Below are positions 2,819 through 34,734 of a stretch of DNA of 34,734 nt, one piece after another. A program made the position numbers and the translations under genes. Source of the DNA: Falsigemmobacter intermedius. Lineage in GTDB: Bacteria; Pseudomonadota; Alphaproteobacteria; Rhodobacterales; Rhodobacteraceae. The notes beneath the pieces were generated by a model, which saw nothing but the letters and a program-made list of their open reading frames with translations, was not told the DNA's origin and did not search any database. Each line of letters begins with the position of its first letter. Position 1 is the stretch's first letter. The stretch is taken from assembly GCF_004054105.1 (NCBI RefSeq), contig NZ_SBLC01000029.1, positions 220 through 34,953 of the forward strand, read 5' to 3'.

Positions 2819-2819
2819 T

Positions 2820-16360: not shown

Positions 16361-16495
16361 CTCACCCATTCCCGACGCGGGGCGCGTTTCGGGGAGCGGC
16401 ACTCCCGCAGCGGTGACATCAAACGGGCCTGTGGGACTTCCCCGCGGGCCGAAATGTCATGCTGGCCCCTTTGGGCCTTATCAGGGGATGATCCG
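16361..16495 (+). other. btuB leader with candidate expression-platform hairpin
   Basis: The leader contains GGCCC (16464-16468), a four-base loop, and GGGCC (16473-16477), followed after six bases by the GGGGA ribosome-binding site at 16484-16488. The CCCC of the hairpin could alternatively pair with the GGGG of that site. No T-run is present, so translational control seems more likely than termination. This is inference from pairing potential only. Confidence 0.4.
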
Positions 16496-18373: not shown

Positions 18374-18375
18374 TC

Positions 18376-19215
18376 ATGGGCCTGAGGGCCTTCATGCTTG
18401 CGGGCGTCTGGCTCGTGAGCATGGCATCGGGTGCTGCGGCTGAAAGGCCGCAGCGCGTGGTGTCAATGAACCTGTGCACCGATCAGCTGGCCATGCTGCT
18501 GGCGGCACCAGGGCAGCTGATCTCGGTCAGCTACCTGGCGCGGGACGCACGCTCTTCCGCCATGGCAGAAGTTGCGCAGAATTTTGATGTCAACCACGGG
18601 CTGGCCGAAGAAATCGCCTTCCTGCGCCCCGATCTCGTGCTGGCGGGGCGCTACACCACCCGCGTCACCGTCGATATGCTGCAGCGGCTGGGCTACCGGG
18701 TTGAGATCTTTCAACCCGAGAACACTCTTGATGACATTCGCACCAACCTTTTGCAGATGGGCAAGGCCCTTGGCCGCGAGGCTGAGGCAGAGCGCATCGC
18801 AGAGGCGATGGACCGAGACATCCTGAACTTGCGTGTGGCGGCGGATCGCGGCCCCCGCCCGGAGACCGCGGTCTATTACTCCTCGGGCTATACCGCCGGG
18901 GGGCGCAGCCTGGGCCATGACATCGTCACCACCGCCGGATTGCAAAATATCGCGGCAAAACTGGGGCTTGGCGCCGGGGGCATTCTGCCGCTGGAGGCGC
19001 TGATTCTGTCGGATGCCGATATGGTGATCCGGGGGGCCAGCTATCAGGGCCACAGCCGGTCCGAAGAAATGCTGCGCCATCCCGCCCTTCAGAAGATGTT
19101 GGCAGCCCCCCGTTTGACGGCCGAAACCCGGCCCGAATGGACGTGTGGCACGCCACTGACGCTGAACGCCATCCATGATTTGCGCGCCGCTGCCGGACTG
19201 GAACCGCTGGAATGA
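18376..19215 (+). CDS. btuF: Periplasmic corrinoid-binding protein, BtuF-like
   Basis: This 279-residue substrate-binding protein of the helical-backbone metal/corrinoid type (PF01497-like) has a signal peptide of about 22 residues ending GAAA. It continues with RVVSMNLCTDQLAMLL, the usual N-terminal signature of BtuF-type proteins. LRPDLVLAGRYTT and YYSSGYTAGGRSLGHDIV are other family-like blocks. It starts two bases after the btuB stop, and its stop overlaps the permease start. Delivery of corrinoid to the downstream ABC transporter is inferred from this order. Confidence 0.88.
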   Translation: MGLRAFMLAGVWLVSMASGAAAERPQRVVSMNLCTDQLAMLLAAPGQLISVSYLARDARSSAMAEVAQNFDVNHGLAEEIAFLRPDLVLAGRYTTRVTVDMLQRLGYRVEIFQPENTLDDIRTNLLQMGKALGREAEAERIAEAMDRDILNLRVAADRGPRPETAVYYSSGYTAGGRSLGHDIVTTAGLQNIAAKLGLGAGGILPLEALILSDADMVIRGASYQGHSRSEEMLRHPALQKMLAAPRLTAETRPEWTCGTPLTLNAIHDLRAAAGLEPLE

Positions 19216-20192
19216 AACTGCTCCTTTCGCTGGCCGCGCTTTGCGCAGGGCTGACACTGGTGTCGCTGTTTGTCGGCTCCAGCAATGTGCCGCTGCTCGA
19301 CACAGCCTGGGCCTATTTCGGCGCTGGTGATCCGCTGATCGTTCTGGTCATGCAGGAATTGCGCCTGCCCCGCGCGGCGCTGGCCCTGCTGATCGGCGCA
19401 GCCCTGGGCCTTGCCGGGGCCGCGATGCAGGGTTTTTTGCGCAACCCTCTGGCCGATCCGGGCATTGTGGGGACCTCGGCGTTTGCCGCCCTCGGGGCGG
19501 TGATCGCTTTGCAAACGGGAATAGTGGCACTTTTCCCCATGGCGCTGCCGCTGATGGCCCTGTGCGGGGCGTTTATTTCGGTGCTGGCCCTGCTGGCCCT
19601 GGCCGGTCGGGGGGCGCGCACCACCACGCTGATCCTGTCAGGAGTTGCGCTGTCTTCAGCGGCAGCGGCGCTGGTCAGCCTGGTACTGAACCTCTCGCCC
19701 AATCCCTTTGCGGCCAATGAGATTACCTTTTGGATGATGGGGTCACTGGCCGACCGTTCATTCCGGCATGTCAGTGTGGCTTTGCCAATTCTGCTGCTGG
19801 GGGCCGTGCTGATCTGGCGGGCGCGGAAAGGCCTTGATGCGCTGTCCTTTGGCGAAGAGACGGCACTTTCGATGGGGGTGAATGTGCGCCGGTTGCGGCT
19901 GCAGCTGATCCTCGGCTCCGCCTGTCTTTCCGGCGCGTCCACTGCGGTAGCCGGGATGATCGGCTTTGTGGGGCTCGTGATCCCGCATCTGCTGCGTCGC
20001 GTCACCGGGGGAATGCCTTCGCGTCTGCTGTTGCCTGCGGCGCTTGGCTCCGCGGCGCTGATCCTTGCGGCCGATATCGCGGTGCGGATGATCCTGCCGG
20101 GGCGCGATCTGAAGCTGGGGGTGCTGACCGCACTTCTGGGCACGCCAGTGTTTCTACACATGGTTTGGAAATCCCGGGGGCGGGACGCATGA
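19212..20192 (+). CDS. btuC: FecCD-type corrinoid ABC transporter permease, BtuC-like
   Basis: This 326-residue integral membrane protein of the FecCD/BtuC family has multiple hydrophobic segments. Family motifs are LRLPRAALALLIGAALGLAG, MQGFLRNPLADPGIVGTSA and the late GFVGLVIPHLLRR, the cytoplasmic region that contacts the ATPase. It overlaps the binding-protein gene by four bases and the ATPase gene by four bases, so the three are coupled. Confidence 0.92.
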   Translation: MKLLLSLAALCAGLTLVSLFVGSSNVPLLDTAWAYFGAGDPLIVLVMQELRLPRAALALLIGAALGLAGAAMQGFLRNPLADPGIVGTSAFAALGAVIALQTGIVALFPMALPLMALCGAFISVLALLALAGRGARTTTLILSGVALSSAAAALVSLVLNLSPNPFAANEITFWMMGSLADRSFRHVSVALPILLLGAVLIWRARKGLDALSFGEETALSMGVNVRRLRLQLILGSACLSGASTAVAGMIGFVGLVIPHLLRRVTGGMPSRLLLPAALGSAALILAADIAVRMILPGRDLKLGVLTALLGTPVFLHMVWKSRGRDA

Positions 20193-20905
20193 AGCCCTTG
20201 TTATCCATAGAGAACATCTCTGTCGCGGGGCGGCTCTTTGATGCCACGCTGCAGATCTTTCCCGGCGAGTTCGTCGGCCTGATCGGACCGAACGGCGCGG
20301 GCAAGACCACGCTTTTGCGCGCCGCTATCGGGATGATCCCGGCAGGCGGAACAAGCTCGCTTCTGGCCCATAAGATCGCGGCGCGCCCGCGCCATGTGGC
20401 CTATCTGGCGCAGGAGCGTGAGGTGGTCTGGCCGATTTCGGTGCGCGAGGTCGTGGCCCTTGGCCGCCGTGCCCACCCGGATTGCGGCGGCGATGATCAG
20501 GCGCGCGCAGATGCCATTTTGCAGGCACTGGACCTTAGCGAATTTGCCAACCGCCAGATCCCGGATCTTTCTGGCGGCGAGCGCGCGCGCGTGCTTCTGG
20601 CCCGGGCGCTGGCCCAGGGGGCGCCCCTGTTGCTGGCGGATGAGCCCTGCGCCGCCCTTGATCCGATCCATTCAATCCGCACGGCCAAACTGCTGCGCGA
20701 CGAAGCCCTGGCCGGGCGCGCCGCCCTTGCGACCCTGCATGATCTGCCACTGGCCGCCCGCTGGTGCACGCGCCTTGTGGTGATTGAACGCGGCGTGATC
20801 GTCGCCGATGGCACGCCCGATCAGGTCCTGGCCCCCGAGCTTTGCCGCCGGGTTTTCGGAATAAGTCTGACCCGCCATGGCCAGTCCTGGCTTCTTGAGG
20901 AGTAA
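20189..20905 (+). CDS. btuD: Corrinoid ABC transporter ATPase, BtuD-like
   Basis: This 238-residue ABC ATPase has Walker A GPNGAGKTTL (about residues 33-42), the signature LSGGERARVLLARAL, Walker B LLLADEPCAALD and the switch histidine in LATLHDLPLAARW. I chose the ATG at 20189 because it forms an ATGA overlap with the permease stop and begins the conserved N-terminus. The ribosome-binding site of the next gene is contained in its last codons. Confidence 0.92.
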   Translation: MKPLLSIENISVAGRLFDATLQIFPGEFVGLIGPNGAGKTTLLRAAIGMIPAGGTSSLLAHKIAARPRHVAYLAQEREVVWPISVREVVALGRRAHPDCGGDDQARADAILQALDLSEFANRQIPDLSGGERARVLLARALAQGAPLLLADEPCAALDPIHSIRTAKLLRDEALAGRAALATLHDLPLAARWCTRLVVIERGVIVADGTPDQVLAPELCRRVFGISLTRHGQSWLLEE

Positions 20906-20909
20906 CCCA

Positions 20910-21851
20910 GTGAGAGATCTTGTGCAGCAATGGCTTGCTGATGAAATCACCGGCTGGTCGATGGGCAGTTTCGGCGCGATCAGCGAGTTTATCCGCTGGC
21001 CCGGCGATGCCCCTGCGATCGCAGCAGATAGCGGCATGGGCTGGTACACACCCCGCGGAGGCATTCGGATTGACCGCACCGAAGGCCTCACCGCACTCGC
21101 CTGGGAGATGCCTTCGACCAAGTCTGAGCGGTTTTTCCGCCACGTCGAATTTCTGCTGCCCGATGCCGAGGCGCTGGTTCCGCAACCGGCGGGCTTCACC
21201 GAACTTGGCCCTGATACCGGGGCGATTCGCCCGGAAGACCAGGACATGATCCTGTTTGACTGCGGCCTGCAGCAAAAGAACGTCCGGTTCTGTGTGCGGA
21301 CCCGCGATCCTGAGTTGATCGCGGAAATGCGCCGCTGCGAAGGCATGGGGAATTTCGCCCCAGGCAATACGGCGGCGGCTATGATTTTTGCCCGTCATCC
21401 GCACCGCATCTCCATCACCGCGATCGGCCGGGTTGAGGTTTATCAAAAGATCGGCGGCCCCGACACCGATTGGAAAAGCCCGGACGGCCCGCATACCCAC
21501 CTGCTGCCAAAACTGCTGGCAGCCGGGCGGACCCATTCGGCCAATACACCGATCCCGCCCGGTTTTTTACCTGTCGCCAGTCTTCATCCGGCATCGCCCT
21601 TCTCATTGCCCGACGGGACGGAGCGTCCGTTCTGCCGCAAAACTTGGGCGCATTACTCCGACTTGATGGCAGCACACAGATCGATTGAGGCGACAGAACT
21701 GCGGGCTGCCCTTGACCGCGGCGCGGCCGCCCCGGCCGGAGAGATAATCGATGCTGATGAGATTTCCGACGGCAGCCCCCTGCCCCAAGGCCGCCACCAG
21801 CGCCATACCGCCCGCGTCTGGGAATTAGAGCGGAAGTTGACCGAAGCCTGA
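20910..21851 (+). CDS. Unrecognised conserved-looking protein at the end of the btu operon (GTG start)
   Basis: This 313-residue protein is one I cannot name. No signal peptide or membrane segment is evident, and composition and codon use match its neighbours. Visible features are an N-terminal DEITGWSMGSFGAISEF, the run FDCGLQQKNVRFCVRTRDPEL with two cysteines, and His-containing stretches (FARHPHRIS, GPHTHLLPK). The C-terminal tail is low in hydrophobic residues. I prefer the GTG at 20910 because GAGGAG at 20897-20902 lies seven bases upstream, while the in-frame ATG at 20877 lies inside btuD. Its place at the end of a riboswitch-led uptake operon suggests a corrinoid-related role. Its end overlaps cobC tail to tail by 27 bases. 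Confidence 0.75.
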   Translation: MRDLVQQWLADEITGWSMGSFGAISEFIRWPGDAPAIAADSGMGWYTPRGGIRIDRTEGLTALAWEMPSTKSERFFRHVEFLLPDAEALVPQPAGFTELGPDTGAIRPEDQDMILFDCGLQQKNVRFCVRTRDPELIAEMRRCEGMGNFAPGNTAAAMIFARHPHRISITAIGRVEVYQKIGGPDTDWKSPDGPHTHLLPKLLAAGRTHSANTPIPPGFLPVASLHPASPFSLPDGTERPFCRKTWAHYSDLMAAHRSIEATELRAALDRGAAAPAGEIIDADEISDGSPLPQGRHQRHTARVWELERKLTEA

Positions 21852-23849: not shown

Positions 23850-23933
23850 ATGAGCCGAATGATGAGCGAGCCTCAAGCCCGTTCTCCATTGGCAATCCGT
23901 CGCAGCACCCACAGCGTGGAGCCCAGCATATGA
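23850..23933 (+). CDS. 27-residue leader ORF coupled to cobD
   Basis: This very short frame (MSRMMSEPQARSPLAIRRS..., 27 residues, no hydrophobic segment) starts at an ATG placed behind AAAGAGGAGCGA. That is one of the strongest ribosome-binding sites in the window. Its TGA overlaps the cobD ATG as ATGA, the same coupling used between the certain cob genes. I do not recognise the peptide. It is either a leader peptide that sets cobD translation or a small protein; expression is not shown by sequence alone. Confidence 0.5.
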   Translation: MSRMMSEPQARSPLAIRRSTHSVEPSI

Positions 23934-24898
23934 GTGAAATCGCCGAGAGCCTTTTGGGACTCCTTCTGGGCTTCAGTCTGGACCTGCTGCTGGGCTGGCC
24001 CGTCTGGCTTTACCGTCGGATCGGCCATCCTGTGGGATGGCTGGCCGCACCGGTGACATTGCTGGAGGCCCGGCTGAATAAGCCCGCTTTTAGCAACGCA
24101 AGACGGTTTGTATCGGGCGCTGTTTTGGCACTGAGCGGCATTGCAGTCGCCGGCCTGATTTGGGCCGGGTTGACCTCTCTGGCCGGAGCACTGCCCTTGA
24201 CCGCGGTCTGGCTGGGGTTGTTGTATTGGCCGCTGATTGCGGCCCGTTCGATGCATGATCACGTCGCGGCCGTCGCCGATCCGCTGGAGAAAGGGGATCT
24301 GCCGAATGCCCGCATAGCCGTTTCGATGATCGTGGGTCGGGATCCGAACCGGCTTGATGAGGCTGGTGTCAGCCGCGCCGCACTTGAAAGCCTTGGCGAA
24401 AACACCTCGGATGGGATTATTGCCCCGATCTTCTGGGGCGTGCTTTTGGGACCGGCCGGCATGGCGGCTTACAAGGCGATCAATACCTTTGACAGTATGA
24501 TTGCGCATCGTAACAGCCGCTATGAATGGTTTGGAAAATGCGCTGCCCGCATCGATGATCTGGCAAATCTGGCCCCCGCGCGCCTGACGGGGTTTCTCTA
24601 CGCACTCACGACAGGGCGGCGCGTAAAATCGGTACTGAAGGTCATGTGCCGGGACGCCGGTGCGCATCGCTCTCCCAATGCCGGCTGGCCCGAGAGCGCC
24701 CTGGCCGCAGCCCTGAATGTCAGGCTGTCTGGCCCGCGGGTTTATGACGGCAGCATTTCTCCCGAGCCGTGGCTGAATGGCGATTGCCCGGATCCCGACG
24801 GATCCGGCGTTCGCAAAGGGCTCACGCATTATCGGCGGCTCCTTGCCCTGACGGGCGCGGGCCTTCTTGGCCTGACTGTCGTAGCTGTGATGCTTTGA
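23930..24898 (+). CDS. cobD: Adenosylcobinamide-phosphate synthase CobD (CbiB)
   Basis: This 322-residue inner-membrane enzyme joins aminopropanol phosphate to adenosylcobyric acid. Several hydrophobic segments are present (residues about 8-28, 63-100, 145-160, 305-321). The family-specific LDEAGVSRAALESLGENTSDGIIAPIFW and YKAINTFDSMIAHRN are clear. The start at 23930 overlaps the stop of the 27-residue ORF. The codons for LTAVW at residues 90-94 contain a truncated copy of the parS-like palindrome (24197-24208). Its end overlaps, tail to tail, an unrecognised minus-strand gene. Confidence 0.94.
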   Translation: MSEIAESLLGLLLGFSLDLLLGWPVWLYRRIGHPVGWLAAPVTLLEARLNKPAFSNARRFVSGAVLALSGIAVAGLIWAGLTSLAGALPLTAVWLGLLYWPLIAARSMHDHVAAVADPLEKGDLPNARIAVSMIVGRDPNRLDEAGVSRAALESLGENTSDGIIAPIFWGVLLGPAGMAAYKAINTFDSMIAHRNSRYEWFGKCAARIDDLANLAPARLTGFLYALTTGRRVKSVLKVMCRDAGAHRSPNAGWPESALAAALNVRLSGPRVYDGSISPEPWLNGDCPDPDGSGVRKGLTHYRRLLALTGAGLLGLTVVAVML

Positions 24899-25385
24899 CG
24901 AGCCTTGCCGCTTCGGCAAGCTCCAAAAATTCAGAAAGTTTCCAGCCTGAAATGGCATAACGTTTCCCGTGATGTTCGCAAGGAATACGAAGTGTGGGAA
25001 GCGGGCTCAACCGAGCGATAAGATCGGCGGAAACCCCGAGTAATTTCGGCGCTTCGTTCACAGTAACCGGTTTAAAGATGTAGGCTCTTAACTGCTTGAA
25101 TGCCGCTCTTGCGGCTGCCTGATTTTGCCCTGTCGGATCGAGCCAGGTCGCTCCAAATTCCTCTAAGCCGGAGTTGAAATTGACCGCGGTCAATTCCGCC
25201 GCCCTGAGCTTGTTCAGACGACGTTTCGCATGGACCAGCCTGCGAGGCAGGGCTGCTGAGAAAATTTCGGGTAATCTTACACGCAGTATAAGCTTGTCCT
25301 GAGTTTGGGTCAGGCACAGTGAGCATGTGCCTTCACTGATCAGCCTGGCCAGCTGTCGCGCATCATTAAAAAGCATCTGCCACAC
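24822..25385 (-). CDS. Unrecognised riboswitch-linked protein with a possible C-terminal helix-turn-helix
   Basis: This 187-residue frame starts at GTG 25385 or ATG 25376; neither has a strong ribosome-binding site. The C-terminal part (VNEAPKLLGVSADLIARL, then RIPCEHHGKRYAISGWKLSEFLELA) resembles the excisionase-type winged-helix pattern, but I cannot assign a family. Residues 64-70 (ELTAVNF) are encoded by palindrome 3. The gene follows a cobalamin riboswitch on its own strand, 165 bases upstream, and overlaps cobD by 77 bases tail to tail. It could be a regulator, or a chimeric remnant left by rearrangement around the plasmid backbone. Confidence 0.55.
   Translation of the reverse strand: MWQMLFNDARQLARLISEGTCSLCLTQTQDKLILRVRLPEIFSAALPRRLVHAKRRLNKLRAAELTAVNFNSGLEEFGATWLDPTGQNQAAARAAFKQLRAYIFKPVTVNEAPKLLGVSADLIARLSPLPTLRIPCEHHGKRYAISGWKLSEFLELAEAARLVKASQLRQSGQEGPRPSGQGAADNA
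25178..25195. repeat. Candidate parS-type palindrome 3 (inside the riboswitch-linked gene)
   Basis: Third perfect copy of AATTGACCGCGGTCAATT. As in bluE, it is in frame so that it and its flanks encode ELTAVNF. Confidence 0.75.
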
Positions 25386-25425: not shown

Positions 25426-25549
25426 TCACGCCTTTTCCCTTTGGCCATACGGCCATGACAATTGAACCGCACAGCCAAAGCTGAGCGATGACGATTGCCA
25501 CCTCTGCGGAAACTCCGCTCCTGTGGCACGCCCCGCGCCACGGATGGGT

Positions 25550-25728
25550 GATCGACGTAACAGGTCTCCTGACTTGCGGGTCACAGCACCGGGCCAGCCT
25601 TCCCATGTCCGAATGACACAGTGGCAAATTGGCTGGCGCTCTCCGCTTACAGTTGCGGGGGCAGTCCGGGATTTGTCGAAGGACGCACCCGAGTTCCCTT
25701 GAAAGCCGCTCTCACGGCATCACGTCAT
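25550..25728 (-). promoter_or_regulatory. Cobalamin riboswitch between repC and the unrecognised gene
   Basis: Read on the minus strand, the blocks run GGGAACTCGGGTGCG near 25698-25684, then the B12 box with GACTGCCCCCGCAACTGTAA around 25670-25648. GCCACTGTG follows near 25624, GGGAAGGCTGG near 25604, and AAGTCAGGAGACCTG around 25578-25563. Together with the expected spacing this is a complete aptamer. Its 5' end begins within a few bases of the repC stop, so it may be read by transcription running through repABC. Confidence 0.93.
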
Positions 25729-25732
25729 GAAT

Positions 25733-26848
25733 TTATTGCACTTTCGCGGGGAATCTTGTCAAGGAAGTCAAAAGGCCTGGTGTTGTTTGCCGTGCTGTTT
25801 GGACAGCAGTTAACAAATAGCCTGCTGGTGAGGGGATTTCGCTGATCTTTCGTGCCATACGGTCAAGTATTCCCAGAAGCGTCAGAACAGGTACCTCATA
25901 TGCTGCCTTAGACAGCGTTGTATGTTGCAGGCCGAGCATCTGTCCAAAAAAATAGGCTGTCTTCTGCGCTTCTGTCTCTGAGCAGGGCGGTGGGAAGAAG
26001 GTGCTGAGTTCTGTGAACTGTTCCCAATTCATTGCCTCTGTCGCAATGACTGCCTGCTTAGGTTTTATTGTATTAGATTCTGGATTAATGAGACGGTCAG
26101 AATGTCCGGCAGAGACGGACATTTCCACTGGTTCTTGAGTGCTTTTGCGCGAGGAAGTGTCGATCATTTCTGAGGCTTCCCGGATCGCGACAACAGCTTC
26201 CGTCACCGTAAGCGACGCGCGGCGTGCCAAACGGGTGAAATGACCCAGAACTTCAGCGACATCACCCCCGACGCGCAGATTTGCGATACGGGCACACAGA
26301 TGCCGCAGGCGGGCGCGAAGTCCGCGTAATTCCTGGTCCTGCTCGCGGCGGAGTTTTGCGGAGCCGATGATATCAGAGGCGCGCAGGAAAAGCGGCGTCA
26401 GATCCAGACCGAAAGCTCCGACCACCTGGCCGCCACGCATCAGCGGAAAGCGTTTGCCATTCGCGCTGTCACGGCGCAGCAGCAGGCCCTGTTTTTCCAG
26501 CGTGTCGAGATGCCGGCGCAACTGACGATCGGTGATCCCTTTCGCCCGGAAGCACAGGGTTTCATTGCTGGCATAGACTGTCAGCAATATTTTATGCGTC
26601 ACAAGGCCGTTTTGTCCGTGCGAGCAGGGCAGGCAGCTGAGCAAGGCATCGAGCGTCACCAGCACGCCTGGCGACAGCCCAAGGTCACGCCGACAGGTAT
26701 TGACCGCGGCCATGATGTCGCGCCGTGCCACAGGTTCAAACATCGGTTGAGCAGTAATCTCTCCACAGCCGACGTAGCTCGTGGCAGCTAAGAGCGCAGC
26801 ATGCTGCGCCAGCCCGGCAGGATCTGCCGGTTTTGTGATCTTGTTCAT
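25733..26848 (-). CDS. repC: Plasmid replication initiator RepC
   Basis: This 371-residue protein is the initiator of repABC plasmids and acts at an origin normally located inside its own gene. The N-terminal winged-helix part shows LGLSPGVLVTLDALLSCLP, ITDRQLRRHLDTLEKQGLLLRRDS and GKRFPLMRGGQVVGAFGLDLTPL, all typical. The C-terminal part includes NWEQFTELSTFFPP and PSPAGYLLTAVQTA. It is slightly shorter than many RepC proteins. It is third in the repA-repB-repC order and separated from repB by a 211-base gap with the features of a countertranscribed-RNA region. No strong ribosome-binding site precedes the ATG, as is common for RepC. Confidence 0.94.
   Translation of the reverse strand: MNKITKPADPAGLAQHAALLAATSYVGCGEITAQPMFEPVARRDIMAAVNTCRRDLGLSPGVLVTLDALLSCLPCSHGQNGLVTHKILLTVYASNETLCFRAKGITDRQLRRHLDTLEKQGLLLRRDSANGKRFPLMRGGQVVGAFGLDLTPLFLRASDIIGSAKLRREQDQELRGLRARLRHLCARIANLRVGGDVAEVLGHFTRLARRASLTVTEAVVAIREASEMIDTSSRKSTQEPVEMSVSAGHSDRLINPESNTIKPKQAVIATEAMNWEQFTELSTFFPPPCSETEAQKTAYFFGQMLGLQHTTLSKAAYEVPVLTLLGILDRMARKISEIPSPAGYLLTAVQTARQTTPGLLTSLTRFPAKVQ
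26058..26090. other. A+T-rich tract inside repC, candidate oriV
   Basis: A short stretch rich in A and T (including TTTTATTGTATTAG) stands out within otherwise GC-rich repC coding sequence. In studied repABC plasmids the origin maps to an A+T-rich part of repC. Assignment here is by analogy. Confidence 0.4.
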
Positions 26849-27059: not shown

Positions 27060-28010
27060 TTATTTGACGCGGCCTGTCTCTTTGGCGTTTCCCTGATCAC
27101 GCAGATAGTCCTCCAGGATCTGGTCCAGCCGATCATCAAGATAGGCCGTAAACCCCGTCAGTGATTTATCCGCGCAGCGAATTGCCAGCTTCTTAGGGCT
27201 GCGTTCGATGGTCAGCTTTTCGCGCAACACCCGTTTGGCGCTCGCCGTCTGGGCACCCGCTGGGCGTTTGGTCAAGGCAGTGAGCACAGCCTGCAACCGC
27301 TCGGTGCTTGCGCGATCAGCCGGGACCATGGCGAGCAGGGCCGCCTCTGTCAGGTCGGGCTGTGCTGACAGCACCTCGCGCAATTGCATCCAGGGGCGAC
27401 GGCCGGAATCATGTGCCGGGCCAATGGCCGCGATCAAAGTGGCGGGCACCGCCTCGGCAATACCAAGCATCCGGCTGAGAGTTGTCTTGTCGATGGCCAG
27501 CACGTCGCAGACTTCATCGCGCGAAAAGCTATGGTTCAGCAATTGCTCGGCATAGACGGCCTGTTCAATGAAGCTGCGCTGCAAACGGGCTGCGTTTTCA
27601 AGACCCTGAGAGATCAGCGCCTCGCGGTCATCCATCTCGCTGATATAGGCCTGAACGTCGATGCCAAGCTGGCGGCAGGCTTCAATCCGGCGGCGACCGT
27701 AGACAACCTCATAGGGCAGGGGGCCGCCGCGCACGCGGCGCAGAAGCACCGGCAGGCGCTGTCCCGACGCTTTAATCGAGGCGACCAGATCCTCCAGCCC
27801 GTCCTGAATGTCAAAACGGTCGCGGATGGCGCTGCCCGCAATCTCAGACGGGCTAATTGCCCGCGCCGCGCCGGCGGCCAGCTGGTCAAGGCCGCGCTGC
27901 ACATCCAGCACGCCTGACAGGCGCCGCGGCTTCAGATCGGCCTCGGCTTTCGCAGCTTCGCGGCCCTCACGAACGGCTTTCAGGCTTGATGCCAGCAAAT
28001 CTTTCCGCAT
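27060..28010 (-). CDS. repB: Plasmid partition protein RepB (ParB family)
   Basis: This 316-residue centromere-binding protein works with RepA. The ParB/Sulfiredoxin-like N-terminal domain shows EDLVASIKASGQRLPVLLRR and VVYGRRRIEACRQLGI (the box II/GRRR region). The helix-turn-helix follows in FSRDEVCDVLAIDKTTLSRMLGIAEAVP around residues 157-185. The long basic N-terminus (MRKDLLASSLKAVREGREA) fits RepB. Its ATG overlaps the repA stop by one base (TGATG). It is the likely binder of the palindromes in this window. Confidence 0.94.
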   Translation of the reverse strand: MRKDLLASSLKAVREGREAAKAEADLKPRRLSGVLDVQRGLDQLAAGAARAISPSEIAGSAIRDRFDIQDGLEDLVASIKASGQRLPVLLRRVRGGPLPYEVVYGRRRIEACRQLGIDVQAYISEMDDREALISQGLENAARLQRSFIEQAVYAEQLLNHSFSRDEVCDVLAIDKTTLSRMLGIAEAVPATLIAAIGPAHDSGRRPWMQLREVLSAQPDLTEAALLAMVPADRASTERLQAVLTALTKRPAGAQTASAKRVLREKLTIERSPKKLAIRCADKSLTGFTAYLDDRLDQILEDYLRDQGNAKETGRVK

Positions 28011-29209
28011 CAGTTACGCCCCCAATTCGACTGCAGCATCTGGAAAATTTCTTCCGAGACCTCATGCACGGACTGGATCGCCCGTTCATAGGTTTTTCGG
28101 TTGCGCATATCTGCCAGTTCAACTTCGAGAACCGTCTGTTGCGAGACCCCCGCTTCACTGATCGCTGATGATTTCAGGAAGGCGGATTTCATCACCGCAT
28201 CGCCGAAAAGATCACGGATGAAGCCGGCAAACTCGACCTGGGTGGTGATATTGGTGTCGAAACGGCTGAGCAGGAAGCGAAAATTGTCAAACAACCCCAC
28301 GCCCGCGCTTTCATTCAGAACCTCGGTCAATGAGGCCGCCATGTTCAGAAACTGTGCCGCTGAGGCCAGGTCCACTCGCTCGGGGATCAGCGTCATAATG
28401 ATATTGCGCGCGGCACAAATTGCCGAGAGCGTCACATAGCCCAGCTGTGGCGGACAATCGAGCACGACCACATCATAGTCATCCTCGACCATCTTCAGCG
28501 CGGAACGGATCCGGTCAAAGAACACTGGGGTCTCGCCCCGGCTCAGGGCGGCCGGGGTTTCATGTTCAAATTCCGCGACCTGGATGCCCCCAGGGACGAG
28601 GTCCAGATTGGGGAAATAGGTTTTACGGATGATCTCGGTAATCGGCTTCGGACCCTCGCCGGTTTCCCGGTCACGGTAGCGGATCACGTCGTAAAGCGAT
28701 CCGCCGGTGAAGAAATCCAGCTCGGGCTGATAGCCGAAGAAGGTGGTCAGCGAGGCCTGTGGGTCGCAGTCAATCGCCAGCACCCGTAAGCCACGCAGGC
28801 TCAGTTCCTGCGCTGTATGGATGGCCGTCGAGGTTTTGCCGCTGCCGCCTTTGAAGTTCACAAAGGCCAGCACCTGAAGTGTATCGACCGCAGGGTCGCG
28901 CCGCCCAGGCCGGAACTGATCAGGGTTCTTTGCCGTTTCGGCCAGACGCCGGCGGATCTCTGCCAGTTCAGAGGCCGCATAGCGACGCCGTCCACCGGGG
29001 CTGGTTTCCACGTCGGGAATGCGGCCTTCATGGTGGGCTTTGCGCAGATAGCCATCGGCAACGCCCAGATAGTAGCTGGCTTCGCCCGCCGAGAATGTGC
29101 GAAGTGATTTCACGTCATGGGGCGCAAATGAGCTTTCGGACAGCGCTTTCAACGCGGTCGTCAGATCCCGCGCGAAGGACATGAGATGGTCATGAAGCGC
29201 CTGCGTCAT
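28010..29209 (-). CDS. repA: Plasmid partition ATPase RepA (ParA family)
   Basis: This 399-residue ATPase moves plasmid copies apart and usually represses repABC. An N-terminal winged-helix segment (FSAGEASYYLGVADGYLRKAH, YAASELAEIRRRL) precedes the deviant Walker A KGGSGKTSTA at about residues 120-129. The later motifs VLAIDCDPQASLTTFFGY and VVLDCPPQLGYVTLSAI are also present. The ATG at 29209 lies inside one of two direct repeats that could be its operator. An internal ATG ten codons in is a possible alternative. Confidence 0.95.
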   Translation of the reverse strand: MTQALHDHLMSFARDLTTALKALSESSFAPHDVKSLRTFSAGEASYYLGVADGYLRKAHHEGRIPDVETSPGGRRRYAASELAEIRRRLAETAKNPDQFRPGRRDPAVDTLQVLAFVNFKGGSGKTSTAIHTAQELSLRGLRVLAIDCDPQASLTTFFGYQPELDFFTGGSLYDVIRYRDRETGEGPKPITEIIRKTYFPNLDLVPGGIQVAEFEHETPAALSRGETPVFFDRIRSALKMVEDDYDVVVLDCPPQLGYVTLSAICAARNIIMTLIPERVDLASAAQFLNMAASLTEVLNESAGVGLFDNFRFLLSRFDTNITTQVEFAGFIRDLFGDAVMKSAFLKSSAISEAGVSQQTVLEVELADMRNRKTYERAIQSVHEVSEEIFQMLQSNWGRN

Positions 29210-29280
29210 TCGTTCACTCTGCTCATCTTGGCGTCGGAACGGTATCCCGCCCCTTTATCAATTAATTTCGTTCATTCTAT
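29207..29280 (-). promoter_or_regulatory. Candidate repA promoter and RepA operator repeats
   Basis: TTCGTTCACTC (29209-29219) and TTCGTTCATTC (29267-29277) are 11-bp direct repeats differing at one base. The first covers the repA start and the second covers a possible minus-strand -10 element TAGAAT (29279-29274). A possible -35 TTGCCA is at 29304-29299 with a long 19-base gap. Autorepression by RepA through these repeats is inferred. Confidence 0.4.
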
Positions 29281-29674
29281 GCACAGCGGCCAATCGCTTG
29301 GCAAGCTGAACATAGCGCTATTGGAACGGTCGGGGCGATTTTAGTTGACGGTCAGCGTTCCTTTCTTTGGATCGCACGTTCAGAAAATTATCTAAACGAT
29401 TGAAAAACCTATTAAAAACCAAAATCGAATGGGTAGGCGTCCATCGGTCAGAACGCCAACCGGTCGGATCCGGCGCCTGACCGTCCGGCCGGAGTGGCTC
29501 TGCTCGTAACGCTAACCCATTGCGATTCGCGTTTCGGCGTTCGCTTGTGGCGGCGCTGCGGGAACGGGATTCGAGCAGAGGGCGTAGAACCGTAAACCAA
29601 AGCAGTGCCGCGCCTGCGAAAAACCGTTACGTCCCATACCCTCTTGCCGAAGCGGTAAGCCTCGGTTAGCCAGA
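29281..29674. other. Intergenic region between repA and the fourth riboswitch
   Basis: I see no convincing gene. The left part is A+T-rich (29340-29430), unlike the surroundings. A perfect 9-bp inverted repeat (CTCTGCTCG at 29498-29506, CGAGCAGAG at 29572-29580) encloses 65 bases. A 7-bp pair (CGGTCAG 29445, CTGACCG 29477) also lies here. The promoter for the riboswitch-led operon must be in the right part. Confidence 0.5.
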
Positions 29675-29850
29675 AGAGCCGGTTTCCGAGAGGAAATAAC
29701 AGGGAATCCAAAACACAGGCTCTGCCTGCTGAAAATGGAGCTGCCCCCGCAACTGTAGGCGGTGAGCCCCGCATCCGATGACCACTGAGAGCGATCTTGG
29801 GAAGGGGGATGCAGGGCGATGACCCGTCAGTCAGGAGACCTACCGGCTGA
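29675..29850 (+). promoter_or_regulatory. Cobalamin riboswitch upstream of the second ABC transporter operon
   Basis: Blocks in order: ACAGGGAATCC near 29699, the B12 box GAGCTGCCCCCGCAACTGTA at 29738-29757 followed by GGCGGTGAGCC, GACCACTGAG near 29780, GGGAAGGGGG near 29799, and AGTCAGGAGACCTACCGG ending about 29845. It is a complete aptamer on the plus strand. Downstream, CCGAC (29864-29868) and GTCGG (29874-29878) form a hairpin touching a GGGGAGGAG ribosome-binding site. Confidence 0.95.
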
Positions 29851-29890
29851 ATGCAACCACGAGCCGACGGGGTGTCGGGGAGGAGAGAAC

Positions 29891-30040
29891 ATGACCAATA
29901 TCCGAGGGCTGCGTGCCCGCGGCTGCCGGGCGTGGCGTTTTCTGCCATCCCCTCTTCGGCTCTGCTTTGGAGCCCGTTTCCATGTCCTTCAAGACCCTTC
30001 TGTGCAACAGTGCTTTCGCACTGGCAGCCTCACTCACTAG
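29891..30040 (+). CDS. 49-residue riboswitch-proximal ORF (possible leader peptide)
   Basis: This ATG is preceded by GGAGGAGAGAAC, the best ribosome-binding site in the operon, and lies directly after the riboswitch hairpin. The peptide is arginine-rich (MTNIRGLRARGCRAWRFL...) and not recognised. It ends 58 bases inside the substrate-binding-protein gene in a different frame. It may be a leader whose translation transmits the riboswitch state, or a chance frame. Confidence 0.35.
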   Translation: MTNIRGLRARGCRAWRFLPSPLRLCFGARFHVLQDPSVQQCFRTGSLTH

Positions 30041-30992
30041 CGTTCAGGCGCAGGCCACCGAATATCCCCTGACCATTGAGAACTGCGGTTTCCCCCAGGT
30101 GTTCGAGGCGGCACCCAAAAATGTCGTCAGCGTTGGTCAGCAGGGGACCGAGATCCTCTATGCGCTGGATTTGGGGGACCGGCTGTCCGGGACAGCCCTG
30201 TGGTTCACCGAAATTTTGCCGGAGTATAAGGCGCAGAACGACAAGGTCGAGCGTATCGCTGACAATATGCCCGGCTTTGAGGCGGTGATTGCCAAACGCC
30301 CGGAGCTTGCCTTTACTCAATACGAATGGATGATCGGCGCACAGGGCGTGGTGGGCACTCGCCCGCAATTTCATGATCTGGGCGTCAAAACTTATATCAT
30401 GCCGACCGATTGTGACGGGAAAGACAACCTTGTCGGATCTGACGGTACCAGGACTGAGGCTTTCAGCATCGAGAGCCTCTATAAAACGATTACCGAACTG
30501 GGCCAGATCTTTGATCGTCAGCAGGCGGCCCTGGAACTCGTAGATCAGCTGAAATCCCGCGAAGCGGCGGCTGTGGCAAAGGCGGCCGAACTCAAGGCCG
30601 ATCAGATGACCGCCGCGGTCTGGTTCTCATCGGCTGAGATGGAGCTTGACCCCTATATGGCAGGCCGCAGCGGCGCTGCAGGTGATATGATCCGCGCCAT
30701 CGGCCTCACCAATGTCGTCACCTCGGATGAGGAATGGCCGACCGTTGGCTGGGAAACCATCGCAAAGGCCAATCCGACCTGGCTGATCCTCGCCGAGATG
30801 GATCGTCGCCGTTTTCCGGCTGATGACGTCGAGAAGAAACTGGAGTTTCTGAAGTCCGACCCCGTGGCCAGCCAGCTTGAGGCGGTCAAATCCGGACGGA
30901 TCATTGTGATCAACTCGCAAGAAATGGAAGCCTCGCTGCGCCGTGTTACCGGCATTGAGAAGATCGTCACCGCAATCGCCAGGGCGAAGTAA
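29982..30992 (+). CDS. Periplasmic substrate-binding protein of a riboswitch-controlled ABC transporter
   Basis: This 336-residue protein has a signal peptide of about 24 residues (LLCNSAFALAASLTSVQAQA) and the helical-backbone binding fold of metal-chelate and corrinoid carriers (YPLTIENCGFPQVFEAAPKNVVSVGQQGTEIL, then LGLGDRL-type and PSWLILAEMD-type regions). I chose the ATG at 29982, behind GGAG at 29969; the frame is open upstream to 29913 but lacks a start with support. The riboswitch argues for a cobalamin, cobinamide or cobalt-chelate ligand. It is clearly different in sequence from the BtuF-like protein at 18376. Confidence 0.88.
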   Translation: MSFKTLLCNSAFALAASLTSVQAQATEYPLTIENCGFPQVFEAAPKNVVSVGQQGTEILYALDLGDRLSGTALWFTEILPEYKAQNDKVERIADNMPGFEAVIAKRPELAFTQYEWMIGAQGVVGTRPQFHDLGVKTYIMPTDCDGKDNLVGSDGTRTEAFSIESLYKTITELGQIFDRQQAALELVDQLKSREAAAVAKAAELKADQMTAAVWFSSAEMELDPYMAGRSGAAGDMIRAIGLTNVVTSDEEWPTVGWETIAKANPTWLILAEMDRRRFPADDVEKKLEFLKSDPVASQLEAVKSGRIIVINSQEMEASLRRVTGIEKIVTAIARAK

Positions 30993-32051
30993 ATGGGTGC
31001 GCTCCACGCGACGGGTCGTGGGGTGCTGGCCAAACTGACAGCGCGAAGCGCGCTGTCAGTTCTGGTGCTGGGCCTAGCGCTCTTGGCGGGTACGGCGATA
31101 GGCGAGACCCGCATCCCCTTTGACACGGTTCTAAGTGCGCTCGCGAACCGGATCTTTGGAGCGAACTACCCCATCGATAAGATAGATGAGGGGATCATCT
31201 GGGCCTACCGGCTGCCTCGGGCGGTTACCGCCGCTTGCTGCGGGGCGGCGCTGGCGCTTTCGGGCGTGGTGCTGCAAAGCCTTTTGCGCAACCCGCTGGC
31301 AGAGCCATATCTGATGGGGATTTCGGCGGGGGCCTCAACCGGGGCAGTGCTGGTGACCGTGGCGGGTCTTGGCGGCGGCATGGTGTCGATGTCTTTTGGC
31401 GCGCTGATCGGTGGCATCACGGCCTTTGGTCTTGTAGCGGGGCTGGCGGCAGCCTCGGGGGCCGGGTCGGGCATGAAGGCCAGCGGCCAGATCATTCTGG
31501 CGGGCATTGCGGGCAGCCAGATGTTCAATGCTATCACCTCCTTTATCATCACGAAATCCGCCAATTCCGAACAGGCGCGGGGCATCATGTTCTGGCTTTT
31601 GGGCAATCTTTCAGGCGTTCGATGGGATGATCTCTGGCTGGCGGTTCCGGTAGCATTGATCGGCCTTATCATTTGCCTGCTGCATATGCGTGTGCTGGAT
31701 GCCTTCGGCTTCGGCGCGGAATCTGCGGCCTCGCTGGGCGTCAACCTCGGACGCACGCAGGTGCTGCTGATCGGGACCGCCTCGGCGATGACGGCGCTGA
31801 TGGTTTCGATTGTCGGGGCGGTGGGTTTTGTGGGTCTGGTGGTGCCGCATGCCGCGCGGCTGATGTTTGGCACGCGGCATTACCATCTGATCCCGGCCTC
31901 GGCGCTTCTGGGGGCGGTGTTCCTGATCGGATCGGACATCCTGTCGCGGACGCTGATTTCGGGTCAGGTGCTGCCCATTGGCGTGATCACCTCGCTGATC
32001 GGGGCGCCGTGCTTTGCAGTGCTTTTGTTGCGGATGAGGCGACAGAGATGA
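30993..32051 (+). CDS. FecCD-family ABC transporter permease
   Basis: This 352-residue polytopic membrane protein has WAYRLPRAVTAACCGAALAL, VVLQSLLRNPLAEPYLMGIS and GFVGLVVPHAARLMFG, the standard FecCD/BtuC landmarks. A 40-residue N-terminus precedes the first conserved region. It starts immediately after the stop of the binding-protein gene, and its stop overlaps the ATPase start (ATGA). It is the inner-membrane channel of the second riboswitch-controlled importer. Confidence 0.93.
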   Translation: MGALHATGRGVLAKLTARSALSVLVLGLALLAGTAIGETRIPFDTVLSALANRIFGANYPIDKIDEGIIWAYRLPRAVTAACCGAALALSGVVLQSLLRNPLAEPYLMGISAGASTGAVLVTVAGLGGGMVSMSFGALIGGITAFGLVAGLAAASGAGSGMKASGQIILAGIAGSQMFNAITSFIITKSANSEQARGIMFWLLGNLSGVRWDDLWLAVPVALIGLIICLLHMRVLDAFGFGAESAASLGVNLGRTQVLLIGTASAMTALMVSIVGAVGFVGLVVPHAARLMFGTRHYHLIPASALLGAVFLIGSDILSRTLISGQVLPIGVITSLIGAPCFAVLLLRMRRQR

Positions 32052-32827
32052 CGATGCCCCTCCTTCAGGCGCGGCATCTGACGCGCAGCATTCGCGGCCG
32101 GGCGGTGGTCAGTGATGTCTCCTTTGACGTTCACGCTGGTGAGTGCATCGGCCTTATCGGCCCGAATGGTTCTGGAAAATCCAGCCTTTTGCGGCTGCTC
32201 ACCGGGCTCCAGCGGCCCAATAGCGGCGAAATCACGCTAAAGGGTGAGCTGCTTTCCCGGCTGTCTCGGCGTCAGATTGCGCGCTGCCTCGCCTTTGTGG
32301 CCCAGTCGCAGGAGGCCAGTGAGCGGCTGACCGTACGCCAGTCGGTGGCGCTTGGCCGAACTCCCTGGCTCTCGGTGCTCTCGCCCTGGGGGCCAGCGGA
32401 CGAAGGGGCTGTGCAAAAGGCATTGTCTTCTGTCGGGCTGACGGGGTTTGAGGGCCGCGACTGGGAAAGCCTCTCGGGTGGTGAGCGCCAACGCGGCCAT
32501 ATCGCCCGCGCGCTCGCGCAGGAGCCGGAGCTGCTGATCCTGGATGAGCCGGCCAACCATCTCGATATCCACCACCAGCTGGCAGTGCTGGATCTGATTG
32601 CGGGGCTGAATGTCACCACCATTCTCGCGGTGCATGACCTGAACCACGCGATGCGCTGTGACCGCATCGCCTGCCTCGATCAGGGGCAGCTGGTAGCCCT
32701 CGGCCCCCCCGCTGAGGTTTTGACCCCGCAGCTTTTGCGAGAGGTCTTTCACATCCGCGCCCGACAGCTGAGCGATCCGCACGACGGTCAGCTGATCTGG
32801 CGCTTTGACGCTTTAGAGAAGGTATAA
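32048..32827 (+). CDS. ABC transporter ATPase of the FecE/BtuD type
   Basis: This 259-residue ATPase has Walker A GPNGSGKSSLLR (about residues 38-49), signature LSGGERQRGHIARAL, Walker B LLILDEPANHLD and switch AVHDLNHAMR. I chose the ATG at 32048 because it overlaps the permease stop; upstream extension only reads the permease gene in another frame. The next gene starts three bases after its stop. Confidence 0.93.
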   Translation: MTMPLLQARHLTRSIRGRAVVSDVSFDVHAGECIGLIGPNGSGKSSLLRLLTGLQRPNSGEITLKGELLSRLSRRQIARCLAFVAQSQEASERLTVRQSVALGRTPWLSVLSPWGPADEGAVQKALSSVGLTGFEGRDWESLSGGERQRGHIARALAQEPELLILDEPANHLDIHHQLAVLDLIAGLNVTTILAVHDLNHAMRCDRIACLDQGQLVALGPPAEVLTPQLLREVFHIRARQLSDPHDGQLIWRFDALEKV

Positions 32828-32830
32828 CTC

Positions 32831-33253
32831 ATGCGCAGTCTTGCCCTTGTTCTGGCCCTCATGGCCGCTCCCGCCTTTGCCGAAGTTCATGAAGTAGAAA
32901 TGCTCAACCGCAGTGAAAATGGCTCGATGGTTTATGAGCCTGATTTTCTGCGTATCGCCCCGGGGGATAGGGTTGTCTTTCGCGCCACCCATCCCAGCCA
33001 CAACGCGGCCACCATCGCGGGCATGATCCCCGAGGGGGCCGCAAAACACCTTGGCAAGATCGATCAGGAAATTGAGATGACCCTCACTGTGCCGGGCAGC
33101 TATGGCATCAAATGCAGCCCGCATTTTTCGATGGGGATGGTGATGATGATCGAGGTAGGCGAGGGCCAGCCTGATCTCGCCGCATTGCCCGCCGACTTGC
33201 CGCCTATGGCGGCCGAGCGGTTCCGCGCCATCATCGCGAGAGCGGCGCAATGA
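32831..33253 (+). CDS. Pseudoazurin-like periplasmic blue copper protein
   Basis: This 140-residue cupredoxin has a 17-residue signal peptide ending APAFA. The type 1 copper ligands are all present with pseudoazurin spacing: His57 (in THPSHNAA), Cys95, His98 and Met103 (in KCSPHFSMGM). Known pseudoazurins donate electrons to nitrite or nitrous-oxide reductases. Here the gene sits between a corrinoid-type ABC transporter and a methyltransferase under riboswitch control, with no denitrification gene nearby. A periplasmic redox role in metal or corrinoid handling is possible. GAGAAGG precedes the ATG. Confidence 0.9.
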   Translation: MRSLALVLALMAAPAFAEVHEVEMLNRSENGSMVYEPDFLRIAPGDRVVFRATHPSHNAATIAGMIPEGAAKHLGKIDQEIEMTLTVPGSYGIKCSPHFSMGMVMMIEVGEGQPDLAALPADLPPMAAERFRAIIARAAQ

Positions 33254-34026
33254 GCCGGGCCAACCAAGATCTTTCCGAGGAAATCCGCGCCTATTGGGGG
33301 CGGCGGGCCGACAGCTTTGATCAAAGCTTCGCCCATGCCATTGCAGCGGGCGCGGAGTTTTCTGCCTGGGCGCAGGAGATCGAACGCCATCTGCCACCGG
33401 CTCCTGCGCGGGTGCTGGAGTTGGGCTGCGGCACGGGCGAGGTGACGCGTGTGATCCTTTCGCTTGGTCACCAGGTGACGGGCCTTGATTTCACTCCCGA
33501 GATGCTGGCGCGTGCGAAGGCCAAACATGCCGGAAACGCGCAGGCGAAATTCTACCTTGCCGATGCGCAGAACACGATGGAGCCCGATGCAGCTTATGAT
33601 GCGGTGATCGCCCGTCATTTAACCTGGACCCTGACAGATCCGAAGGCCGCCTATCGCGACTGGCTGCGCGTGCTGCGCCCCGGTGGCAGGGTCGTTTTGT
33701 TCGACGGTGACTGGGCGCGTGAAAGCAGGATCACGCGGGCTTTGTCGCCGATTATCCGCTGGCTTGGGCGCAACCTTCCGCCCGATCCTGTTGATGCGGA
33801 AATGACAGAGAGTCACAACGCGATTATGGCCTCTCTGCCTTACGGTGAGGGGCTGTCGGCAAGACGTCTTGCTACAGACCTGAAAGACGCGGGTTTCGTG
33901 GGCGTCACCGTCCACAGTCACGCCCGCGTAACACGCGGCATGGGAAAGAACGCGCCACTGGCCCGCCGAATTCGCCTGCGCAGGTGGAGAAGATTTATTG
34001 TTTCTGCATCAGCTCCACAGTTGTGA
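33250..34026 (+). CDS. Class I SAM-dependent methyltransferase
   Basis: This 258-residue cytoplasmic methyltransferase has motif I VLELGCGTGE at residues 55-64, an acidic motif II (VTGLDFTPEML) and VLRPGGRVVLFDGDW after the core, of the UbiE/methyltransf_11 type. The tail is strongly basic (RRIRLRRWRRF). The substrate is unknown. It overlaps the cupredoxin gene by four bases (ATGA), so it belongs to the transporter operon. Similar methyltransferases occur beside iron-chelate transporters, which suggests modification of the imported ligand, but this is inference. Confidence 0.88.
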   Translation: MSRANQDLSEEIRAYWGRRADSFDQSFAHAIAAGAEFSAWAQEIERHLPPAPARVLELGCGTGEVTRVILSLGHQVTGLDFTPEMLARAKAKHAGNAQAKFYLADAQNTMEPDAAYDAVIARHLTWTLTDPKAAYRDWLRVLRPGGRVVLFDGDWARESRITRALSPIIRWLGRNLPPDPVDAEMTESHNAIMASLPYGEGLSARRLATDLKDAGFVGVTVHSHARVTRGMGKNAPLARRIRLRRWRRFIVSASAPQL

Positions 34027-34103: not shown

Positions 34104-34734
34104 TCATTGGACTACCCCCATTCCAAAATCGTTCACCGCATCGTTGCGAAGGCCATCAAGATCGATCCTATCGAGGCGGTTCAGGTTGCGATCGATGGCA
34201 TTTTCCCTCGGATAAAGATCCTCTTGGGCACGGCCGAGTGTCGAGCCGACACCAGTCATAGACTCAATGTTGGTAGAGCGCATGTCGAGCATGCCGCTGG
34301 CGGCGAGCATTCCGGTCCATTCAGACAGGTCCACCCGCTCCATATCGAGGTTCTGGAACTGGGCAAGCGTGATGCCACGGCAATCCGGGTTCTCTGGCGG
34401 CCCCCACGGGATGTTCAGCTGTAGACGGGCTTGCTCGTTCATGATGCGCGCCAAGGGCGAGTTGAACATGCAATATCCAGTCTTTCGCTTGACGCATTTC
34501 CCTAAGATCTTGGTGGAACACCATGTGCCGATCTCATCCGTTGATCGGAGGGCCTTTCGCACCTGAAGCTCCTGTTCACTTTCTGAGCAGGCAAACAGAA
34601 TCTCAACAAGCACTGAGATAAGCGCATAGACGGTGTAGGCTGTCATCACCGCGCTCATGACCGAGGCGGCACCAGAGGTCAGGGAAATGGTGCCCTGTTG
34701 CAGAGCGCCGTTGGCAACGGCAGGCCCGCCGCCC
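34104..34734 (-). CDS. traN: Conjugal transfer mating-pair stabilisation protein TraN, C-terminal part
   Basis: This is the 3' portion of a larger gene; the frame stays open through the right edge, so the start is outside the window. The visible 210 residues include a hydrophobic segment (SAVMTAYTVYALISVLVEIL). The cysteine-rich TraN-like end follows: CSESEQELQVRKA, IGTWCSTKILGKCVKRKTGYCMF, NSPLARIMNEQARLQL and NPDCRGITLAQFQNLDMERVDLSEW. TraN is an outer-membrane protein of F-type conjugation systems that binds the recipient. Its presence indicates a transfer region to the right and a plasmid able, or once able, to conjugate. Confidence 0.85.
   Translation of the reverse strand, partial: GGGPAVANGALQQGTISLTSGAASVMSAVMTAYTVYALISVLVEILFACSESEQELQVRKALRSTDEIGTWCSTKILGKCVKRKTGYCMFNSPLARIMNEQARLQLNIPWGPPENPDCRGITLAQFQNLDMERVDLSEWTGMLAASGMLDMRSTNIESMTGVGSTLGRAQEDLYPRENAIDRNLNRLDRIDLDGLRNDAVNDFGMGVVQ

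Follow-up and report, generated by a model that had tools for sequence, protein, structure and literature searches.

A cobalamin-riboswitch operon that joins a FecCD-type importer to a pseudoazurin and a methyltransferase probably imports a cobalt-carrying compound

Results

A five-gene operon behind a B12-sensing RNA

A 34,734-nucleotide stretch of Falsigemmobacter intermedius DNA (the window, whose positions are used as coordinates throughout; contig of 34,953 bases, genome of 4.05 Mb) carries at its right end, at 29663-34026, a Cobalamin riboswitch, a hairpin and five closely packed genes, which encode the three parts of a FecCD-type ATP-binding cassette (ABC) importer, a pseudoazurin and an S-adenosylmethionine (SAM)-dependent methyltransferase. 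This operon is real, recurs in relatives and is undescribed as far as searched; it is a cobalamin-riboswitch importer with two helpers of dedicated subfamilies. The five-gene set probably imports a cobalt-carrying compound, with the redox protein and the methyltransferase as helpers. Our more specific reading, based on sequence comparisons and held at a probability of about 0.4, is that a cobalt chelate imported by the operon would feed de novo B12 synthesis, after a redox step in the periplasm and methylation of its ligand in the cytoplasm. The features of the operon are as follows.

29663-29861, + strand: Cobalamin riboswitch aptamer (RF00174; cmscan 94.0 bits against a gathering score of 31.5, E = 2.3e-22, full model 1-189)
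29912-29937, + strand: terminator-like hairpin with T tail (pattern scan), between the aptamer and the binding-protein gene
29982-30992, + strand: periplasmic binding protein of the FecCD-type importer (Peripla_BP_2, Pfam 133.4 bits)
30993-32051, + strand: FecCD permease (Pfam PF01032, 288.6 bits)
32048-32827, + strand: ABC ATPase (Pfam PF00005, ABC_tran, 122.7 bits)
32831-33253, + strand: pseudoazurin of the operon-type HNAA clade (Copper-bind; TIGR02375 above cut-off)
33250-34026, + strand: class I SAM-dependent methyltransferase (Methyltransf_11, Pfam PF08241, 81.3 bits)

Peripla_BP_2, FecCD permease and ABC ATPase thus stand in one operon, all above their Pfam cut-offs, and the aptamer score bears out the initial annotation, made from the letters of the window alone, in placing an importer behind a cobalamin riboswitch. 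Its description of five genes with overlapping or nearly abutting ends was also accurate (two 4-base overlaps, one abutting junction and one 3-base gap); of the boundaries that it had given, 29675-34026, the end is correct and the start cuts 12 bases off the aptamer. Terminator-like sites number 4 on both strands of 29200-30100, against 1.0 in shuffles, and the hairpin (29912-29934 in the scan) is a possible expression platform of the riboswitch. Cobalamin would repress the operon genes, an expectation that the hairpin fits.

The importer is distinct from the BtuFCD-like set of the same window

The window holds a second importer, a btuBFCD-like set with its own riboswitch (16196-20905). A permease hidden Markov model (HMM) built here gives the operon permease 640 bits and the btuBFCD-like permease 165 bits, so the operon importer is distinct from that set, as had been claimed. 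The permease also misses the curated BtuC cut-offs (NF003001 and NF007081; 198 of 334 and 205.1 of 461). With BtuFCD and its cobalamin riboswitch, the operon shares the FecCD-type ABC importer, the riboswitch and neighbouring cob genes; it differs by the missed BtuC cut-offs, the added pseudoazurin and methyltransferase and the presence of the separate btuBFCD-like set.

The best-scoring curated models are EitA for the binding protein and those of a putative F420-0 importer for the permease and ATPase, with EitC second, yet all remain below cut-off: EitABC (NF052484/NF052485) with 263.3 of 640 for EitA and 274.9 of 485 for EitC, and the F420-0 importer (TIGR03868/3869/3873) with 176.7 of 392.4, 274.2 of 437.35 and 276 of 372.4. 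Cysteines C35 and C144 of the binding protein are invariant in an alignment of 29 sequences, window included. Its structure model (predicted local distance difference test, pLDDT, 92.5) is closest to the uncharacterised 4mlz and 4n01, followed by heme and siderophore binders; the 50 matches listed include siderophore, heme and molybdate binders and no BtuF, which is a weak negative.

Composition of the operon in relatives

A plasmid protein search with the window methyltransferase returned 534 records. Among the six examined of those listed, all five genes with a riboswitch directly upstream were found in Cereibacter azotoformans pORIO2 (L014; L numbers denote loci, G numbers genomes), Rhodobacter capsulatus SB 1003 pRCB133 (L015) and Ensifer sp. 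PDNC004 (L016), at 49-67% protein identity to the window. Because riboswitch and gene order are the same in these three, the five-gene arrangement is not a matter of chance. Methyltransferase and importer occur without pseudoazurin or riboswitch in L017 and L019, and L018 begins inside the pseudoazurin, at the end of its record.

A sample seeded with the binding protein, and hence blind to the two extra genes, yielded 26 places besides the window's own (7 in 385 genomes of the class and 19 in 248 of the family). With a five-sequence HMM that includes the window, we label as clade A the 17 places scoring above 400 and as A2 the nine scoring 320-342; counts and statistics from these genome samples ignore relatedness. 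A riboswitch lies directly upstream in 15 of the 17 clade-A places (L159 has none by Rfam or by R1, a model built from 18 Rfam-found aptamers, the window's four included; L161 starts at a contig end) and in two of the nine A2 places (L163, L166). Pseudoazurin accompanies 5/17 clade-A importers and methyltransferase 4/17: L029 and one of the two L021 places carry both, L020 and L145 carry only the methyltransferase, and L156-L158 only the pseudoazurin. Neither extra gene was seen in the nine A2 places. Loci L111 and L114 were judged on just 2.5-3.8 kb. In L029 (2682-6651, G026), the riboswitch and all five genes are recognisable with the binding-protein and permease frames interrupted, by decay or by assembly error, and the genome has no CobN, CbiM or CbtA match.

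Since the extra genes occur separately, together or not at all in clade A, the core of the operon is riboswitch plus importer, and pseudoazurin and methyltransferase are independent options. The binding-protein-seeded sample rules out the five-gene set as an obligate unit. For the co-occurrence of the five families, which the initial annotation had named as a check, the outcome is mixed: the extras do recur, in subfamilies tied to such importers, and they are separable from the set. The lack of co-conservation with the transporter that it had named as refuting the proposal is found by half, as importer alone, with pseudoazurin, with methyltransferase and with both all occur. An EamA-type exporter lies near related importers in L015 (4306-5241) and L159, by Pfam, and in L023, L162 and L168, by similarity.

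A pseudoazurin clade of its own

The pseudoazurin scores 113.3 against the curated TIGR02375 cut-off of 109.85. Its precursor, with an N-terminus that resembles a signal peptide by eye, carries His57, Cys95, His98 and Met103, which by the ligand positions of the family are the four type 1 copper ligands, and the site is intact, as first proposed for this cupredoxin. The protein shares family and complete copper site with respiratory pseudoazurins such as PDB 1bqk, and the operon clade differs from them by HNAA and, mostly, CSPH at the ligands. Specifically, a tree of 14 pseudoazurins from operons and 27 others places all the operon proteins, from Rhodobacterales and Rhizobiales alike, on one side of a branch with support 98/98; HNAA is present in 14/14 operon proteins versus 0/27 others, and CSPH in 13/14 versus 0/27. 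For the background, the window protein was searched against 149 genomes of a single family, which gave 39 places, 30 of them with loci; the tree leaves out eight background places without loci, duplicates, the partial L018 and matches below 60 bits. The window's own genome has a second pseudoazurin (L002), outside the operon clade. Because of the separate clade and the HNAA motif, the operon pseudoazurin looks dedicated to such importers.

A plasmid search with the window pseudoazurin returned 319 records, and all six further loci examined among those listed (L202-L207) have riboswitch, importer and HNAA pseudoazurin in that order, five of them with CSPH. No methyltransferase stands in line with these six operons; Roseomonas marmotae (L206) has a convergent copy next door. 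In L028 (8274-10457), a PepSY/flavodoxin/oxidoreductase protein is encoded near a methyltransferase and a FecCD importer, perhaps an alternative redox partner that replaces pseudoazurin.

A methyltransferase family tied to importers

The methyltransferase (alignment of 40 sequences, window included; structure model pLDDT 90.7) is predicted to be cytoplasmic, because no signal peptide is apparent by eye. It misses the cut-off for the corrinoid protein-associated methyltransferase CpaM (NF043040; 70.3 of 180). Its reaction cannot be read from the structure, because the 50 matches listed are mixed (phosphoethanolamine N-methyltransferases, natural-product and other methyltransferases) and only 11-24% identical.

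A contig scan seeded with the methyltransferase gave at least 79 loci, 20 close (L030-L049, 42-54% identical) and 59 distant (L050-L108); L034 and L040 appear to duplicate the contigs of L020 and L021. A FecCD permease is present at 17 of the 20 close loci versus none of the 59 distant ones, 12 of which are shorter than 10 kb. Sixteen close loci have a Cobalamin riboswitch (L030-L043, L047, L049) and six a pseudoazurin (L035, L038, L040, L042, L043, L049). The remaining close loci, L045-L047, have SBP_bac_5/Opp-type importers, a type of transporter that handles small metal chelates and peptides. L045 and L046 each have a TonB receptor clustered with methyltransferase, SBP_bac_5 and Opp-type importer, and L047 has riboswitch (7593-7792), methyltransferase, SBP_bac_5 and permease in that order. 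L045 holds two methyltransferase copies, and at its start lies the end of a cobalamin-independent methionine synthase; L047 has another Cobalamin riboswitch ahead of ribonucleotide reductase (2318-5549).

Apart from the window's own methyltransferase, 20 members turned up in the genome samples, of which 10 come from 248 genomes of the taxonomic family, 7 from 385 of the class and a further 3 from 299 of the phylum. A FecCD permease lies in the fetched stretch at 18 of these 20 places, L027 and L152 being the exceptions. The three phylum-sample loci gave no riboswitch match. The methyltransferase family is thus tied to FecCD importers and, to judge from its gene neighbourhoods, looks dedicated to them. 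In L021, a 178-residue protein, membrane-like by eye and with no Pfam family, is encoded directly behind the methyltransferase (7031-7564, + strand). Binding proteins near other members (L017, L023) match 6b2x and YiuA entries, labelled iron/siderophore; a kinship of binding proteins in this second methyltransferase group with PA2913 was dropped, as 9hrp is YiuA of Yersinia ruckeri.

PA1921, a Zur-regulated methyltransferase encoded beside a TonB receptor and a CobN-like gene according to the available portions of PMC4542158, could be kin to this family. It stays a lead, because members were found only in the window's own class among the 299 phylum genomes at E 1e-25.

Cobalt genes in and around the carriers

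Genes for cobalt supply or insertion adjoin several of the operons. L014 has cbiM/cbiQ, cobyrinate synthase and metH nearby; in L202, cobO lies convergent behind the pseudoazurin and is followed by a second riboswitch, a DUF1636 gene, cobW and cobN; in L205, cobF is next on the same strand as the operon, with cobM and other cob genes beyond. At genome level, CobN is present in 15 of the 17 clade-A carriers, the window's own included, versus 10 of 15 controls. All 14 carriers in which the three importer genes could be read have it, as does G051, whose importer is readable up to the permease (N over 1-6501 of L160 hides the ATPase and beyond). The two carriers without CobN are G026, with the interrupted frames of L029, and G114, whose binding protein (L161) lies at a contig start with no permease behind. 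One-sided p values against the controls are 0.021 for the 15 undamaged carriers and 0.025 for the 14 with three importer genes. The window's own genome has CobN and no match of CbiM, CbtA or NicO; NicO, searched in carriers only, is present in 11 of the 17.

Surroundings of the operon

To the left of the operon lie plasmid genes (25733-29209: RepC-like, below cut-off; RepB, above cut-off; ParA-like, at 28010-29209) and to its right a C-terminal piece of TraN (34104-34658). The window also holds cobW-cobN and an extensive island of corrinoid genes, with four Cobalamin riboswitches. The strongest riboswitch (25542-25739, - strand, 113.4 bits) precedes two frames with no NCBIfam or Pfam match (24822-25385 and 23873-24958). 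A DUF6925 protein (20877-21851, + strand) comes after the btuFCD-like genes. Fused to DUF1289, the same domain adjoins the importer in L021 (7552-8436, - strand) and L014 (9740-10684, - strand), the L014 copy standing behind a cobalamin riboswitch; DUF6925 is a B12-linked, uncharacterised family.

Discussion

How the operon might work

The data show the aptamer, the order of the genes, the complete copper site, the recurrence, the distinct clades and the association with CobN in genomes. From them we infer a course of events that extends from repression and cargo to the redox step, the methylated substrate and the direction of all chemistry. When coenzyme B12 is low, the riboswitch would permit transcription of the operon. 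The cargo would be a cobalt-bearing metallophore or similar small complex, captured in the periplasm by the binding protein and carried inward by the FecCD permease and ATPase. The pseudoazurin may act as a dedicated periplasmic electron carrier to the cobalt complex or to a partner handling it, the simplest redox step being a Co(III)/Co(II) exchange that would make the complex transportable or labile. In the cytoplasm, the methyltransferase would modify the organic ligand, so that cobalt is freed, re-chelation is avoided and CobN can use the metal. Kin of the methyltransferase accompany siderophore-type and Opp-type importers, and for this reason methylation of the organic ligand appears likelier than that of the metal centre. 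We know of no other case in which a cupredoxin would act on a cobalt chelate.

Two reported systems offer precedents, one for the import and one for the methylation. The pyochelin-cobalt importer PA2911-PA2914 of Pseudomonas aeruginosa is likewise a siderophore/B12-type ABC importer, reported to take up a cobalt-metallophore complex (PMC11481552, available portions). It differs in being Zur-regulated, in having a TonB receptor and, as far as those portions describe it, in comprising four genes without methyltransferase or cupredoxin. The likeness is one of description, and no claim of homology is made, such a guess having come from solved-structure names. The staphylococcal pyochelin methyltransferase Spm also modifies a metallophore; in the parts of PMC11449898 available, it is reported as protection against a foreign siderophore, and this comparison too is by description.

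A still more specific version would be cobalt-specific metallophore salvage under direct B12 control, in which a purpose-built cupredoxin carries out periplasmic redox chemistry on the chelate, the methyltransferase disarms the ligand in the cytoplasm and cobalt passes to CobN. The wider methyltransferase family would in that case be a general class of enzymes that modify chelates and release metal, linked to importers of various metals. We regard this version as doubtful.

Weighing a cobalt chelate against other explanations

Several observations count against import of a cobalt chelate with the two extra proteins as helpers. Nine of the 17 clade-A places, the contig-end L161 included, have neither extra gene, and in a tenth, L160, nothing can be read past the permease; half or more of the readable carriers thus manage without either, and neither extra is essential. 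The evidence for cobalt is statistical, small and post hoc: the CobN comparison ignores relatedness, the split into damaged and undamaged carriers was made after the fact, and p rises to 0.15 when all 17 carriers are counted. CbiM (11/17 carriers versus 8/15 controls) and CbtA (6/17 versus 4/15) are about equally common in carriers and controls, and the importer is therefore not the carriers' sole cobalt route; no rule that carriers lack other cobalt transporters emerged, as of the 15 undamaged carriers 13 have at least one of CbiM and CbtA. The operon includes no outer-membrane receptor or chelator synthesis gene. Finally, genes for ethanolamine ammonia-lyase, a B12-dependent enzyme, lie near L017 and a matching cluster is present in L030, L048 and L151, a context that corrinoid import fits equally.

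The cobalamin riboswitch is compatible with either a cobalt chelate or a corrinoid as cargo, and corrinoid import is quite possible. The importer would then carry a corrinoid beyond those served by btuBFCD (cobinamide, a non-native cobamide or degraded cobalamin), the pseudoazurin would help to reduce or decyanate the cobalt centre, and the methyltransferase would remodel the corrinoid or its lower ligand. Besides the ethanolamine ammonia-lyase genes near these four loci, such a cargo would suit the corrinoid gene islands that the window and several relatives represent, and BtuC, too, belongs to the FecCD importers, its models scoring among the best for the operon permease. Of the four functional classes into which cobalamin riboswitch regulons fall, one consists of transporters of B12 or its precursors (PMC3766115, available portions). 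However, a btuBFCD-like set with its own riboswitch is already at hand in the window, the operon permease misses the BtuC cut-offs, both carriers without CobN have damaged or incomplete importers, and the methyltransferase family also accompanies siderophore-like and Opp-type importers; the lack of BtuF among the 50 binding-protein fold matches listed adds weakly to this. We lean modestly to a metal chelate over a corrinoid because of the CobN link, the absence of CbiM, CbtA and NicO matches from the window's own genome and the siderophore-type matches of the window's binding protein and of those in L017 and L023.

It is unlikely that a chelate of another metal (iron, zinc or copper) is imported with an indirect tie to B12, or that the extra proteins act on unrelated targets and are linked for regulatory reasons. 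The closest solved binding proteins, uncharacterised and then heme and siderophore binders, would agree with another metal, as would the A2 relatives, most of which lack a riboswitch; against it stand the cobalamin riboswitch directly upstream of nearly all clade-A importers and the tie of both accessory subfamilies to such importers.

A mixed B12-stress operon is very improbable; in it, the pseudoazurin would serve respiration as a common electron donor, such as to nitrous oxide reductase, and would share the regulation of the importer on account of the destruction of B12 by N2O. The reasons are these: although N2O inactivates B12 and alters the expression of B12-riboswitch genes in Paracoccus denitrificans (PMC5987163 and PMC8390676, available portions) and the protein passes the TIGR02375 cut-off, the operon pseudoazurins form a separate clade with altered residues beside the copper ligands, the second pseudoazurin of the window's own genome falls outside that clade, and five of the six genomes with an operon pseudoazurin, the window's included, have no match to NosZ (TIGR04244; clade II NosZ and NirK lay outside the search). 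NosZ is thus plainly not required, and a donor role to it under N2O/B12 stress is unlikely as a rule. It was found in 5 of 11 other carriers (4 of 9 without the incompletely readable G051 and G114) and, above cut-off, in 5 of 15 controls, a difference that is not significant.

Implications

The combination of importer, pseudoazurin and methyltransferase was not found in full-text literature searches, coverage of which was without most subscription papers, the 2003 B12 regulon survey and supplementary regulon tables. The operon touches two open questions, how aerobic B12 producers obtain chelated cobalt and how imported chelates release their metal. Both can be put to experiment, because the unit occurs in Rhodobacter capsulatus SB 1003 (plasmid pRCB133), which is a tractable species. 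An answer would assign a role to a methyltransferase family and to a clade of pseudoazurins that now share the annotation of the respiratory carrier.

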